From NCBI GenBank assembly GCA_902634775.1, contig CACPLG010000002.1, positions 1-64,000 on the forward strand: a stretch of DNA of 64,000 nt, given 5' to 3'. The stretch comes from an uncultured Pelagibacteraceae bacterium (GTDB lineage Bacteria > Pseudomonadota > Alphaproteobacteria > Pelagibacterales > Pelagibacteraceae). Positions 46,361-52,636 of the stretch are shown piece after piece. Numbering within the stretch: the first letter of the stretch is position 1; every line of letters begins with the position of its first letter. The translations under genes were made by a program, and so were the position numbers. A model generated the notes under the pieces. That model saw only the letters and a program-made list of their open reading frames with translations. It had not been told where the DNA came from and searched no databases.

Positions 46361-46651
46361 TTATAGATTTATTTTAGATAATTCGTATAACTGTGCGCTC
46401 TCTACACACTCAGCATAAATTGCTTTTGCTGTAGCATTATTTCCATTTACGAATTCTTTCATTCCCGCTTCATTATGAACATTAACTTTGAACAACAGCC
46501 CACTTTTATCGGGTATCATAGCCCCAACAGTTTTTTCTGGATAAGCAACACTTTTTCTGACACCCATACCTTCATCTGATTGCATCCAACCCATGAAAGT
46601 TTCTAATTTACCCTCTTTAAGTTTAAGATACACTAACATCTCCTTTTCCAT
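46361..46651 (-). CDS. Small hypothetical protein with alpha/beta-barrel-like pattern
   Basis: A 96-residue protein starting MEKEMLVYLKLKEGKLETF, again with a strand-helix-strand rhythm typical of dimeric ferredoxin-like barrels. It is preceded by AAGGAGAG. No family or function is assigned. Confidence 0.7.
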   Translation of the reverse strand: MEKEMLVYLKLKEGKLETFMGWMQSDEGMGVRKSVAYPEKTVGAMIPDKSGLLFKVNVHNEAGMKEFVNGNNATAKAIYAECVESAQLYELSKINL

Positions 46652-46679: not shown

Positions 46680-46967
46680 TTACACTCCCTTAATTATAAT
46701 TAAATTACCTTCAGAATTTTTTTGGCGAAGTTCTTTAACTGGTTTATATAAATCAGAATTATACCACTCTAAAGCTTTTTCGTAAGTAGGAAATTCAATT
46801 ATAACATTCCTAGTGTAATCCCATTTACCTTCCAATGAGGTATATTCGCCGGCTCTAATAATATATTTCCCACCATAGTGCTTTATAGTTTGAGGTACTT
46901 GTTCCGCGTAAATTTTAAAACCTTCTTTATTCGTCATATTAATCTGAGCAATCACGTATCCGCTCAT
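46680..46967 (-). CDS. DUF1330 domain-containing protein
   Basis: A 95-residue DUF1330 protein. The sequence SGYVIAQINMTNKEGFKIYAEQ, the GG(K)YIIRAGE block and WDYTRNVIIEFPTYEKALEWYNS are characteristic. It is a dimeric ferredoxin-like barrel of unknown function. It starts 3 bases after the upstream gene's stop. Confidence 0.9.
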   Translation of the reverse strand: MSGYVIAQINMTNKEGFKIYAEQVPQTIKHYGGKYIIRAGEYTSLEGKWDYTRNVIIEFPTYEKALEWYNSDLYKPVKELRQKNSEGNLIIIKGV

Positions 46968-47448: not shown

Positions 47449-48450
47449 TTAAATCCAAGCGGGAATCGGTAGTCCTTTTTCCTCTAAAAATTTTCTATTA
47501 AACAGCTTGGAGTTGTATTTATCTGATCTGTCACAAAGAATTGTAACGATTGTTTTACCTGGTCCTAATTTTTTGCCAAGTCTTATAGCACCAGCAATAT
47601 TTACCCCACAACTTGTACCTAAACTTAGTCCTTCATTTTGAATAAGGTCATAAATGACAGGCAAAGACTCTTTATCTTCAATAGAGAAAGCACCATCAAT
47701 TTTTGCTTCAGCAAAATTGGCTGTAACTCTACTTGATCCTATACCTTCAGTAATTGAATTGCCTTCACCCTTTAACTCTCCATTTTCAATGTAGTTATAA
47801 AGAGATGATCCAGCAGGATCTGATAAATAAATCTTAATATTTTTGTTTTTTTCTTTCAAAAAACTGCTTACACCAGCAATTGTTCCTCCTGTACCAGACG
47901 AGCAAACAAAACCATCAACTTTTCCATCAGTTTGCATCCATATTTCTGGTCCAGTGGTCTCGTAATGTCCTTTAGAATTGGCGGTATTATCAAATTGATT
48001 AGCCCAAACTACTCCGTGATTGTTGCTACTCTTTAATTCATCAGCGAGTCTACCTGCTACTTTTACGTAGTTACCATCATCTTTGTATGGTTTAGGTGGG
48101 ACTAACCTTAAATCAGCTCCCATGTTCTTTAACATATCTTTTTTTTCCTGAGTTTGATTATCATTCATCACAATTATCGTTTTATACCCAATAGAATTTC
48201 CTATTAAGCAAAGACCAATACCAGTATTCCCAGCTGTACCTTCAACAATTGTTCCACCTTTTGTAATTAACTTTTTTTCTTGAGCATCTTTAATTAATGC
48301 TAAAGCTGCTCTATCTTTTACAGATCCACCTGGATTTAAGTATTCTGCTTTACCATAAATATTGCATCCAGTAATTTCGGATGCAGCTCTTAATTTTACT
48401 AATGGTGTATTACCAATCCCCTCAATGAAATTATTTTGAGCATTTTTCAT
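47449..48450 (-). CDS. cysK: Cysteine synthase A
   Basis: A PLP-dependent O-acetylserine sulfhydrylase that makes cysteine from O-acetylserine and sulfide. The PLP lysine is in NPGGSVKDRAA, with TAGNTGIGL and GTGGTIAG motifs. I use the ATG at 48450 (333 residues), one base after the cysE stop; an upstream GTG at 48465 would overlap cysE. Together with cysE it forms a cysteine-synthesis unit headed by the Cys-rich peptide. Confidence 0.95.
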   Translation of the reverse strand: MKNAQNNFIEGIGNTPLVKLRAASEITGCNIYGKAEYLNPGGSVKDRAALALIKDAQEKKLITKGGTIVEGTAGNTGIGLCLIGNSIGYKTIIVMNDNQTQEKKDMLKNMGADLRLVPPKPYKDDGNYVKVAGRLADELKSSNNHGVVWANQFDNTANSKGHYETTGPEIWMQTDGKVDGFVCSSGTGGTIAGVSSFLKEKNKNIKIYLSDPAGSSLYNYIENGELKGEGNSITEGIGSSRVTANFAEAKIDGAFSIEDKESLPVIYDLIQNEGLSLGTSCGVNIAGAIRLGKKLGPGKTIVTILCDRSDKYNSKLFNRKFLEEKGLPIPAWI

Positions 48451-48451
48451 A

Positions 48452-49033
48452 TTAATTTTTATCACTTTCGAAGGTTATACCATAAGGTTTAAAGTTTTCA
48501 TCTGAACCTAAAGTTTCCCCGACATTTTTTGCTGGTATTCCAACCATCACTGCATTTTCTGGTACATCTTTTGTAACTACTGCGTTTGCGCCAATCTTTG
48601 CGTTTTTGCCAACAGTCACCGGTCCAAGTACTTGTGCACCAGACCCAACTACCACATTATCTTTAAGAGTAGGATGTCTTTTTATATTTCTTTGTTCATT
48701 AGAATTTATACTTGGTGAAATACCACCTAGTGTTGCCATGTGATAGATCGTTACATTATCTCCAATTTCTGAAGTTTCACCAATTACAACACCCATTCCA
48801 TGATCAATAAATAAATTCTTTCCAATATTTGCTTTTGGGTGAATTTCTATTCCAGTTAAAAATCTTGAAAACTGAGAGATTATTCTTGCAATTAAATTAA
48901 ATTTTGCAATTGCAAAAAAATTTGCGATTTTGTGAAAAAAAACAGCCTTAGCACCAGGATAAGTTAATATGATACTTAACTTTGATTTGGCAGCTGGATC
49001 TCTCTTAATTATAGACTCTAAAAATTCATTCAT
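48452..49033 (-). CDS. cysE: Serine O-acetyltransferase
   Basis: A left-handed beta-helix acetyltransferase that makes O-acetylserine. Hexapeptide repeats run through residues about 70-165, with the active-site histidine in [17 protein letters not shown] and MATLGGIS. I start at ATG 49033 ([18 protein letters not shown], 193 residues), the canonical N-terminus of the EpsC/CysE short type, not the in-frame upstream start at 49123, which runs through the Cys-rich ORF. No clear ribosome binding site precedes 49033, so translation may be coupled to the upstream peptide. Confidence 0.93.
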
Positions 49034-49058
49034 AATTTTGTGAAATTGAATAAGCTTA

Positions 49059-49175
49059 CTAATTGCAACAACAACAAACACCTTCAGGTTTGCAATTACA
49101 TTGCATATCCCCGTCGCAAGCACATGTGTCGTTCGTGCAGTTTGTGCAAATACATTTTGAATTGTCGCAAGCCAT
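49059..49175 (-). CDS. Cysteine-rich micro-ORF upstream of cysE
   Basis: Reading the minus strand from ATG 49175 gives 38 residues and TAG (stop at 49059-49061). It has 12 cysteines, at residues 3, 8, 10, 13, 18, 20, 26, 28 and 34-37, the last four being consecutive just before the C-terminal Asn. It lies 25 bases upstream of the cysE start. The -10-like TATATC ends 4 bases before the ATG, so the transcript may be leaderless. The arrangement fits a cysteine-sensing leader peptide; the CxC and CxxC spacing also fits a small metallothionein. No homologue was searched. Confidence 0.7.
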
Positions 49176-49225
49176 AATTGATATATAGAGCTAATAACTT
49201 AATAATCAACCCAATTTTTGTCGCT

Positions 49226-49918
49226 TTAAATTTGATTTAAAGTAAGGCCTTTTACGTTTGCAGGCACAGCCACATCCATCATTTTTGGATTAGCTAATTT
49301 TAGATTATTCATGATCTCTACATATTGATCTATTGAATTGACTTGTAATCTTGGATTATTCTTTATTTCGTTTCCAATTGTAGAATTTTTTTTTCCATTA
49401 TAATCATGTGCTGGAAAAACTATTGTGTTCTCTGGAAGTTTAAGTAATTTATTGAATAAAGAGTCATATTGTTGATTTGCATTTCCATTTTGAAAATCAG
49501 TTCTTCCGGTACCATTTATTAATAATGTATCTCCAGTAAAAACTCTATCATTCATTAAAAAACTATAAGAACAATCTGTATGTCCAGGCGTATATAAAAC
49601 TTTTAATTCAATACCATCCAAATTAATTTTTTCATTTTCTTTTACTCTTAAATCAACTACTTGAGATTTAGAATTTTCACCCATTATTTTTGTGCAATTA
49701 GTTCTTTTGCTCAATTCATTTAGCCCAGTAATATGATCAGCATGAATATGAGTATCAATTACTTTAACTAATTTTAATTTAAGTTTTTCTAAAAGCTTGA
49801 TGTAATCCTCAGTGTGCTCTATCACAGGATCAATAATTAAAGCTTCCCGACCTTCACCGCTTGACAGTATGTACGTGTAAGTTGAAGACTTATTATCAAA
49901 TAGTTGTTCAAAAATCAT
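49226..49918 (-). CDS. ETHE1-like persulfide dioxygenase / MBL-fold hydrolase
   Basis: A metallo-beta-lactamase-fold protein with the HxHxDH metal motif in THIHADHITG and the later GDTLLINGTGRTDFQ block, which marks the ETHE1/persulfide dioxygenase branch rather than glyoxalase II. It would oxidise glutathione persulfide to sulfite. I use ATG 49918 (MIFEQLFD, 230 residues); upstream ATGs at 49930 and 49957 look less likely. It lies beside cysteine synthesis genes, consistent with sulfur handling. Confidence 0.85.
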   Translation of the reverse strand: MIFEQLFDNKSSTYTYILSSGEGREALIIDPVIEHTEDYIKLLEKLKLKLVKVIDTHIHADHITGLNELSKRTNCTKIMGENSKSQVVDLRVKENEKINLDGIELKVLYTPGHTDCSYSFLMNDRVFTGDTLLINGTGRTDFQNGNANQQYDSLFNKLLKLPENTIVFPAHDYNGKKNSTIGNEIKNNPRLQVNSIDQYVEIMNNLKLANPKMMDVAVPANVKGLTLNQI

Positions 49919-49993
49919 GTTAATTATCATCATATAAAAAATTGCATCGCAAATCAATCTTGCATATAATTTGTTTTTAAAAAGGAGATGTAA

Positions 49994-50657: not shown

Positions 50658-51311
50658 TTGGACAAAAAACTTTTAAACCTACAATCTCAGCATTGGGAAA
50701 ATAATTTCTCAAGTAAGCCTGAGATGTTTGGTTTTGAACCGAGCTACTCAGCAAAAAAAGCTCTCGAAACATTTAAAAAAAATAACATTACAAATATTAT
50801 TGAACTTGGCGCAGGTCTTGGAAGGGATACAATATTTTTTGCACAAAATGGAATTTATGTGCATGCAATTGATTACAGTTTGTCAGCAACAAATATTATT
50901 AAAAAAAGATCTAAAGAAAACAATTTAGACGCTTTAATAAAAGTTGAAAATCAAGATATTAGAAAAAAACTGGATTGTGATAATGAAAATTTTCAAGCAT
51001 GTTACTCACATATGTTATTTTGTATGGCTCTAACAAATCAAGATTTAAAAGATTTAAATCAAGAAATTTTGAGAGTTTTAAAAAAAGACGGTTTTAATAT
51101 TTATACTGTAAGAAATCATATGGATGGCGATTTTAAGAAAGGAGCGCATAGAGGAGAAGATATGTATGAAATGAATGGTTTTATTGTTCACTATTTTTCA
51201 GAAAACAAAATAAAGAATCTTTTAGATGGATTTACAAATGTAAGTATTGAAAATTTTGATGAGGGTAGTTTTCCTCGAAAATTGTCTCTAGTAATAAATA
51301 AGAAAAAATAA
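50658..51311 (+). CDS. Class I SAM-dependent methyltransferase
   Basis: A 217-residue methyltransferase with motif I IIELGAGLGRDTIFFAQNG near residue 45. The start is a TTG one base after the peroxiredoxin stop, so it depends on coupled translation. It resembles the tellurite-resistance/thiopurine-type methyltransferase group that detoxifies small compounds, but the substrate is unknown. Confidence 0.85.
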   Translation: MDKKLLNLQSQHWENNFSSKPEMFGFEPSYSAKKALETFKKNNITNIIELGAGLGRDTIFFAQNGIYVHAIDYSLSATNIIKKRSKENNLDALIKVENQDIRKKLDCDNENFQACYSHMLFCMALTNQDLKDLNQEILRVLKKDGFNIYTVRNHMDGDFKKGAHRGEDMYEMNGFIVHYFSENKIKNLLDGFTNVSIENFDEGSFPRKLSLVINKKK

Positions 51312-51371: not shown

Positions 51372-52124
51372 ATGAGTAATTTAGACAGTCATTATAAACC
51401 AAGTAATTTTAGTGATAAGGTAGCTTTATCTTTCACAAAATTCTTAAGGTTCCTTGCAGATACTTTTTTCAAAAAAAGGTACGGACATAGAGCTGTTGTA
51501 TTAGAAACTGTAGCAGCAGTTCCAGGTATGGTTGCTGGAATGTTAATCCATTTAAAATCTCTTAGAAAGATGGAAGATGATAAAGGATGGATTAAAACTC
51601 TTTTAGATGAAGCTGAAAATGAAAGAATGCATTTAATGACATTCATTCAAATTGCAAAACCAACTTTTATTGAAAGAATTGTAATAATGATTGCACAGTT
51701 TATATTCATTGTAACGTACGCAATCATCTACATTGTATCTCAAAGAACAGCACATAGAATTGTTGGTTATTTTGAAGAAGAGGCTGTCAGAAGTTATACA
51801 GAATATTTACATGAATTAGAAACTGGTAAAATTAAAGATCAACCTGCTCCTGAAGTTGCAATTAATTATTGGAATTTACCCTTACATGCAACACTAAAAG
51901 ATGTTGTAAAAGTGATAAGAGATGATGAGGCAGGACATAGAGATGTAAATCATAGTTTTGCCGATGTTATAGACGAAAGAAAAACAAAAGAAAAAATTAA
52001 TGTCTTTGATTTAATTAAAAAAGCGAAACCTATTAAATCAAATATTGATCCTTATAAAATGCATAAAGTAAAAATAACTAACAAAGAAATAACAACAAAG
52101 GAAAACTTAGGAGGAAATAATTAA
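51372..52124 (+). CDS. aox: Alternative oxidase
   Basis: A 250-residue AOX, a non-proton-pumping diiron ubiquinol oxidase. The metal-ligand blocks are all present: LETVAAVPG, ENERMHL, EEEAVRSYTEYL and RDDEAGHRDVNH. Two hydrophobic helices (about residues 55-75 and 108-130) sit against the membrane. AOX gives a cyanide-resistant electron sink. It starts a unit with a cupredoxin and a DUF4396 gene. Confidence 0.95.
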   Translation: MSNLDSHYKPSNFSDKVALSFTKFLRFLADTFFKKRYGHRAVVLETVAAVPGMVAGMLIHLKSLRKMEDDKGWIKTLLDEAENERMHLMTFIQIAKPTFIERIVIMIAQFIFIVTYAIIYIVSQRTAHRIVGYFEEEAVRSYTEYLHELETGKIKDQPAPEVAINYWNLPLHATLKDVVKVIRDDEAGHRDVNHSFADVIDERKTKEKINVFDLIKKAKPIKSNIDPYKMHKVKITNKEITTKENLGGNN

Positions 52125-52126
52125 TT

Positions 52127-52636
52127 ATGACTAAAATTTATATATATATTTTGACTATATTTTTTATTTTTACATCTGCTTCATTTGCAGATAAAAATAT
52201 GATGATTGGTTCAAAAGGAAAACTTAATGAGGTAAATAGAACAATCAAAGTGAATATGTACGACAACTACTATGAGCCAAAATCTTTCAATATTAAAAAA
52301 GGTGAAACGATAAAGTTCGAAGTAGTTAATGCAGGTAACCTTGTACATGAATTTAATATTGCTAATGCAATGATGCACAAAAAACATCAGCCTGAAATGG
52401 AAAAAATGGTTGAGAATGAAATTTTATTAGCTGACTCAATTGATAGAGAGAAAATGAAAAAAATGGCTAAGATGGATAAGTCAATGGGACATTCACATAC
52501 TAATAGTGTTCTTTTAGCTCCAAATGAAAAAGGGGATTTAGTTTGGAAGTTTGATAATGCAATGAATATAGAGATTGCTTGCAATGTACCTGGTCATTAT
52601 CAAATTGGAATGGTAGCTAAAGTAGAGTTAGAATAA
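52127..52636 (+). CDS. Cupredoxin-domain copper protein
   Basis: A 169-residue exported protein with a signal peptide (about residues 5-22) and a cupredoxin domain: the first histidine in GNLVHEFNI, then the C-terminal CNVPGHYQIGM with the Cys, His and Met of a type 1 copper site. A Met/His-rich insert (MMHKKHQPEMEK and KKMAKMDKSMGHSHT) suggests extra copper binding. It lies 2 bases after AOX, hence probably co-expressed. Confidence 0.87.
   Translation: MTKIYIYILTIFFIFTSASFADKNMMIGSKGKLNEVNRTIKVNMYDNYYEPKSFNIKKGETIKFEVVNAGNLVHEFNIANAMMHKKHQPEMEKMVENEILLADSIDREKMKKMAKMDKSMGHSHTNSVLLAPNEKGDLVWKFDNAMNIEIACNVPGHYQIGMVAKVELE

Follow-up and report, generated by a model that had tools for sequence, protein, structure and literature searches.

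A 38-residue micro-ORF with 12 Cys, situated directly before the cysteine synthesis genes cysE and cysK of a SAR11 bacterium, probably codes for a genuine peptide of metallothionein-like type, which functions as a protein, is made from a leaderless message and is co-transcribed with these genes. Few cells in the sea are as abundant as SAR11 bacteria, and in a survey that used Pfam profiles Pelagibacter is reported to have few known detoxification systems (PMC4161860). If our reading is true, a metal-thiolate peptide too small and odd for Pfam profiles would lead to a revised view of Zn, Cu and Cd handling in open-ocean bacteria.

The micro-ORF and its locus

The window, that is the whole stretch of 64,000 nucleotides from an uncultured Pelagibacteraceae bacterium that was analysed, carries the micro-ORF (called MTL here) in the following arrangement, given in the direction of reading.

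49226-49933, minus strand: MBL-fold protein gene, 5' of MTL on the same strand; 91 of 96 distinct loci have such a gene upstream
49204-49209, minus strand: −35-like element TTGATT; 87 of 95 loci have TTG at −34 to −32 relative to the ATG
49182-49187, minus strand: −10-like element TATATA; TATAT at −12 to −8 in 82 of 95 loci
49059-49175, minus strand: MTL, metallothionein-like micro-ORF, 38 residues, 12 Cys; read from the sequence and a family of 95 distinct SAR11 loci
49034-49058, minus strand: spacer between MTL and cysE, 25 nt; in relatives without conserved structure and without a Shine-Dalgarno (SD) core
48452-49033, minus strand: cysE, serine O-acetyltransferase (NCBIfam); directly behind MTL in 93 of 96 distinct loci
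47449-48450, minus strand: cysK, cysteine synthase (NCBIfam)

The MTL frame runs from an ATG at 49175 to a TAG at 49061-49059, with Cys at residues 3, 8, 10, 13, 18, 20, 26, 28 and 34-37, and the cysE ATG at 49033 is 25 bases past the stop; the ORF, its coordinates, its 12 Cys positions and the distance to cysE, all given by the original prediction, were confirmed from the sequence. The Cys richness is beyond chance, as the richest ORF of 25-60 residues contained 4-8 Cys in 100 first-order Markov windows versus 12 in the real window.

MTL and cysE are presumed to lie on one message. Both cysteine genes are assigned by NCBIfam models (cysE by TIGR01172, 214.3 bits with a cut-off of 210.65; cysK by NF007989, 518 bits with a cut-off of 387), and the matches of the MBL-fold protein to GloB (119.8 bits) and to the Blh sulfur transferase/dioxygenase (100.4 bits) both fall below cut-off. 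A peroxiredoxin gene diverges from the MBL-fold gene upstream of MTL, and no metal regulator or SmtB-like repressor was found among the neighbour genes scanned. No Rfam family reached its cut-off in a scan of the whole window. Downstream of cysK lie two small protein genes, 46361-46651 and 46680-46967 (both minus strand), the second of which encodes a DUF1330 protein.

A family of small proteins in SAR11

MTL is the founding member of what sequence comparison identifies as an unannotated family of small conserved proteins, comprising 81 proteins of 36-43 residues from 95 distinct SAR11 loci. The original prediction was to be given up if related genomes held no conserved ORF; this was checked, and the ORF is conserved across these loci. 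The set derives from 148 loci (L001-L148), 128 of which have the ORF by a rule of at least 9 of 11 framework Cys, reduced to 95 distinct. A set of 96 distinct loci, used for gene order, was obtained from the 148 by leaving out 29 duplicates and 23 loci without the strict pattern, among them three single-Cys variants (L118, L119 and L139).

The single peptide as query found relatives in 19 of 151 same-genus genomes, one of them the window's own; a 26-row profile (A2) found them in 70 of 349 genomes of the genus with a completeness of 60% or more, one match each. The same profile recovered members from 22 of 297 genomes and 4 of 14 genera in a draw from the family, and from 17 of 197 genomes and 1 of 10 genera in a draw from the order. 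The class draw gave nothing credible besides the window's own genome; one weak candidate there (G541, E 0.001) was rejected, being antisense to a long ORF judged by eye to be ccmF-like. In the phylum draw, a mixed bacterial-phage profile (A3) matched 1 of 249 genomes, which was again the window's own.

A scan of named genomes for cysE yielded 548 relatives, and because only the nearest 80 were retained, the sample is biased to close kin; within it MTL is present in 61 loci and absent from 18, with one locus cut off before the ORF. On a quick cysE tree of the 79 loci, presence and absence of MTL need at least five changes, two of which are forced by well supported branches. MTL is therefore widespread in SAR11 and has been repeatedly lost or gained.

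Constraint on the peptide

All 11 framework Cys are kept in 88 of the 95 distinct loci and 10 of 11 in the other 7, under search rules that favour Cys-keeping members and admit only ORFs with at least nine. The N-terminal Cys are kept like those of the final Cys run, and every framework column uses both TGT and TGC (537 and 353 codons in 77 distinct coding sequences, a set chosen by a stricter pattern that itself requires eight of the Cys). Changes in length stay in frame, e.g. the 3-residue loop difference of a 36-residue subfamily.

Over 33 disjoint pairs, MTL has a pN/pS ratio of 0.305; the sum over 644 pairs gives 0.436. Leaving out the Cys columns raises the ratio to 0.516 (disjoint pairs) and 0.81 (summed, 1,331 pairs), and the spacer residues are therefore loosely held. 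Fixed Cys between loose spacers is the pattern that should be expected of a thiolate scaffold, and, judged by comparison of the relatives, the frame and its Cys framework are shown to be selected as protein.

Promoter-like boxes and a probable leaderless start

In an ungapped alignment of the 60 bases 5' of 79 distinct starts, TTG stands at −34 to −32 and TATAT at −12 to −8. Both boxes occur at exactly these distances before 79 of the 95 MTL starts, compared with 80 of all 17,757 ATGs in the same loci. By this comparison MTL is shown to have promoter-like boxes of its own, kept at a fixed distance from the ATG, and the −10-like box near the ATG that had been pointed out in the window is real and also kept in relatives. 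As the boxes keep a fixed distance from the ATG, the message probably begins at the ATG, and with a −10 box that ends at −7 transcription would start at about its A. The MTL mRNA is thus probably leaderless, as originally predicted, and the comparison of boxes in relatives supports this.

Loci without MTL fall into different arrangements. In nine, the distance from the MBL-fold stop to cysE is 14-22 nt, TATAT is absent, and a weaker TGTAAA, TGTAAT or TATAAA is found there. Four others (L051, L083, L094 and L097; 35-39 nt) contain a TATAT-like box shortly 5' of the cysE ATG.

Association with cysE

cysE begins 25-41 nt behind MTL in 93 of the 96 distinct loci, and 93 of 95 have a CCC run within their last eight residues; together with the inferred leaderless start, this matches the layout of a polycysteine leader, a short leaderless ORF with consecutive Cys codons ahead of a cysteine gene. 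No attenuator-type RNA structure, terminator or SD masking was found between MTL and cysE, and constraint is not confined to regulatory Cys codons, given that the entire framework is retained. Among 26 non-redundant loci (from 78), an SD core (AGGA, GGAG or GAGG) occurs in none of the last 20 nt of the spacers, so that the missing ribosome binding site before cysE, first noted in the window, fits the relatives as well. These spacers have a GC content of 12%, and 16 of the 26 contain four T in a row, which is to be expected in DNA of this composition. The alignment of the same 26 rows from ORF to cysE folds at 0.00 kcal/mol, with no conserved RNA structure, and single-sequence folding from the MTL end through the cysE start gave a mean z of −0.15, with 1 of 77 loci below −2.

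The tie to a downstream cysteine gene is not obligate, since three of the 96 distinct loci have none behind MTL. In two of these (L111 and L113), msrB (SelR domain) lies 3 nt behind MTL. In the third (L142/L170), cysE, cysK and the next ORF are missing; relatives of 46361-46651 and 46680-46967 of the window (65% and 53% identity) stand directly behind MTL in swapped order, and MBL-fold and peroxiredoxin genes lie on its other side, as they do in the window. The stretch behind MTL is assembled in each case, and no cysE or cysK was found at E ≤ 1e-10 in any of the three assemblies (66, 75 and 80% complete). Within the msrB genus, cysE is present in three genomes and cysK in two of these. The boxes are kept in all three cysE-less loci, as TTG with TATAAT (L111 and L113) or with TATATT (L142). 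Comparison of these incomplete assemblies (66-80%) shows MTL persisting where cysE appears to be missing, independently of cysE, and such natural losses make the question of leader versus protein directly testable.

Comparison with known families

Metallothioneins are short, have about a quarter to a third of their residues as Cys in CxC, CxxC and CC motifs, and contain few aromatics. The MTL family has this composition (30% Cys overall, range 26-33%; F, Y or W in 15 of 81 proteins), and its Cys spacing is kept by protein-level selection, with the search rules favouring members that keep their Cys. Twenty-six members scanned against Pfam, NCBIfam and PHROGs gave no match better than E 0.15, and a profile search of the PDB gave only weak matches, at E 0.23 or worse, to Cys-rich domains (mucin, LDL-receptor repeats). 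The AlphaFold2 model of MTL is poor, with a mean pLDDT of 54.5. Membership of the SmtA family (PF02069, Metallothio_Pro) is excluded, as none of the 26 members and none of the 151 same-genus genomes match, whereas the control, Synechococcus elongatus, does. A comparison of the peptide with metallothionein families had been proposed at the outset; the composition fits, as that of a new sequence family, and the PF02069 match is absent. MTL would therefore be metallothionein-like by anatomy and outside every metallothionein family tested.

SmtA/BmtA resemble MTL in being small Cys-rich peptides expected to hold metals via thiolates, according to excerpts of two papers (PMC7387436, PMC10612145). 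His is noted in bacterial metallothioneins in part of the latter source (PMC10612145), whereas 58 of 81 MTL proteins lack it and 23 contain it; SmtA/BmtA differ further in the PF02069 match and in the SmtB-like repressor that the scanned MTL neighbours lack. MymT, the mycobacterial copper metallothionein, is likewise described in an excerpt as a small Cys-rich bacterial peptide (PMC7387436); as a difference, MTL members have no Pfam or NCBIfam match.

Among openly licensed PMC papers, no description of the MTL gene was found under SAR11 or Pelagibacter metallothionein, and nothing was found on phage metallothionein, on SAR11 small cysteine-rich proteins or on Pelagibacter serine acetyltransferase and cysteine synthase. 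Canestrari in 2020 reportedly treated the leaderless polycysteine ORFs found in mycobacteria. Such ORFs precede cysteine genes, as parts of two papers describe (PMC13236596, PMC9094748), and MTL is like them in being short, Cys-rich, directly 5' of cysteine genes and probably leaderless. Unlike them, MTL has a Cys framework over its whole length, no conserved RNA structure, copies kept where the cysteine genes were not found, and relatives in phages.

Relatives in marine phages

Two scans of IMG/VR identified 11 marine phage contigs with a shorter relative of MTL. A 31-residue version is present on six; L150, the one tested, has behind the ORF a gene with matches to virion structural and tail-fibre PHROGs, and before it one that matches a PHROG of unknown function. 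Four carry a 35-residue version, whose 3' end is shared with the beginning of a NifU-like gene (L152 tested), and on one (L169) a 28-residue version is separated from a NifU_N gene downstream by about 530 bases, which include a small ORF. NifU-like or NifU_N genes are thus found near the ORF in two of the three phage lineages (L152-L155; L169).

The phage versions share with the bacterial peptides Cys 1-8 of the framework, identically spaced, and have a further Cys at position 15; they do not have the terminal CCC, and AGGAG-type ribosome binding sites precede their ATG. Those tested had no Pfam or PHROG match, and no cysE or cysK (E ≤ 1e-3) was found in the flanks examined. The DNA around L150 and L152 is weakly cyanophage-like (60-80% identity over at most 12% of 8 kb), resembling cyanophages that we take to be T4-like; psbA, as a cyanophage sign, was not found in 10 of the 11 contigs, many being fragments. 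tblastn against INPHARED phages and PLSDB plasmids gave no match, in a search whose low-complexity filter may hide such queries.

At the non-Cys positions, the likeness of phage peptides to eight chosen SAR11 peptides was reached by 0 and 5 of 20,000 shuffles; the test is weaker without the positions used by the scan (6 and 101 of 20,000). Common descent of the bacterial and phage peptides is likely on this evidence, and the phage versions suggest that an MTL-like peptide matters in infection too. Tentatively, SAR11 and T4-like marine phages may share an unrecognised family of tiny metal-thiolate peptides, which in the bacteria would form the leaderless first cistron of a cysteine operon, and in the phages a shortened, nine-Cys version, near NifU-type Fe-S scaffold genes in two of three lineages, that could serve as an auxiliary gene for metal or cluster handling in infection.

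Proposed function and alternative explanations

In the proposed mechanism, the mRNA would start at the ATG and the ribosome would make the 38-residue peptide, whose 11-12 thiolates, in CxC, CxxC and CCC motifs, would enclose soft metal ions (Zn, Cd or Cu) in a small cluster. The number of thiols would correspond to a capacity of about four divalent ions, or more of Cu(I); a mammalian metallothionein domain with 11 Cys is alike in number to the MTL framework. The same message would carry cysE and cysK and so provide the cysteine that the peptide consumes, or, alternatively, co-transcription might tie the supply of thiols to the load of metal or oxidants. Both the metal-thiolate cluster and the benefit of co-transcribed cysteine synthesis are putative. 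Several observations count against this reading. A free-standing metal protein would not need to stand before cysE, as MTL does in 93 of 96 loci, and many SAR11 genomes lack MTL, 70 of 349 same-genus genomes having it. Further points are that no known metallothionein model matches, the structure model has low confidence, non-Cys positions are weakly constrained, aromatics do occur in some members, and no metal regulator is present among the neighbours scanned.

An unlikely alternative is that a working metal-thiolate peptide doubles as a meter of cysteine, its Cys codons tuning cysE-cysK by coupled translation without a dedicated hairpin. The spacing of 25-41 nt to cysE and the missing SD core suggest coupled translation, and a first cistron with 30% Cys would lend itself to sensing how much cysteine is needed. 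However, folding found no conserved cis element, the ORF is kept where cysE was not found, and cysE occurs without MTL in 18 of the 79 named loci (from the nearest 80 of 548 relatives).

It is quite improbable that MTL is a sulfur, redox or Fe-S peptide rather than a Zn or Cu metallothionein, one that would buffer sulfane sulfur, oxidants or cluster intermediates. Such a role is suggested by the neighbourhood: the adjoining MBL-fold protein, with some similarity to sulfur dioxygenases, the peroxiredoxin, MsrB behind MTL in two genomes, and the NifU-type genes of the phages. Closely spaced CxC and CxxC thiols have the look of metal-thiolate clusters, and the 11 of MTL resemble these, which counts against such a role.

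A cysteine-sensing polycysteine leader, at whose Cys codons ribosomes would stall when Cys-tRNA is scarce and so raise cysE-cysK, the peptide being disposable, is very improbable: the position before cysE, the CCC run, the inferred leaderless start and the mycobacterial precedent described in parts of PMC13236596 and PMC9094748 agree with it, but the N-terminal Cys are kept as well as the final run, the GC-poor spacer holds neither conserved RNA structure nor SD core, three genomes retain ORF and boxes with cysE and cysK not found in their 66-80% complete assemblies, and the phage relatives have neither the CCC run nor cysE or cysK in the flanks examined. Of the two readings first offered for this ORF, this one is thus unsupported, and a tiny metallothionein fits, as a putative new sequence family.

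Two further observations concern the genes beyond the peroxiredoxin. Adjoining it is a methyltransferase gene (50658-51311, plus strand), which scores 223.8 bits with the MduS selenoprotein methyltransferase model NF045649 (cut-off 380). An alternative oxidase gene (51372-52124, plus strand; PF01786, 278.5 bits) is directly followed by one for a cupredoxin-like protein (52127-52636, plus strand; PF13473, 34.7 bits).
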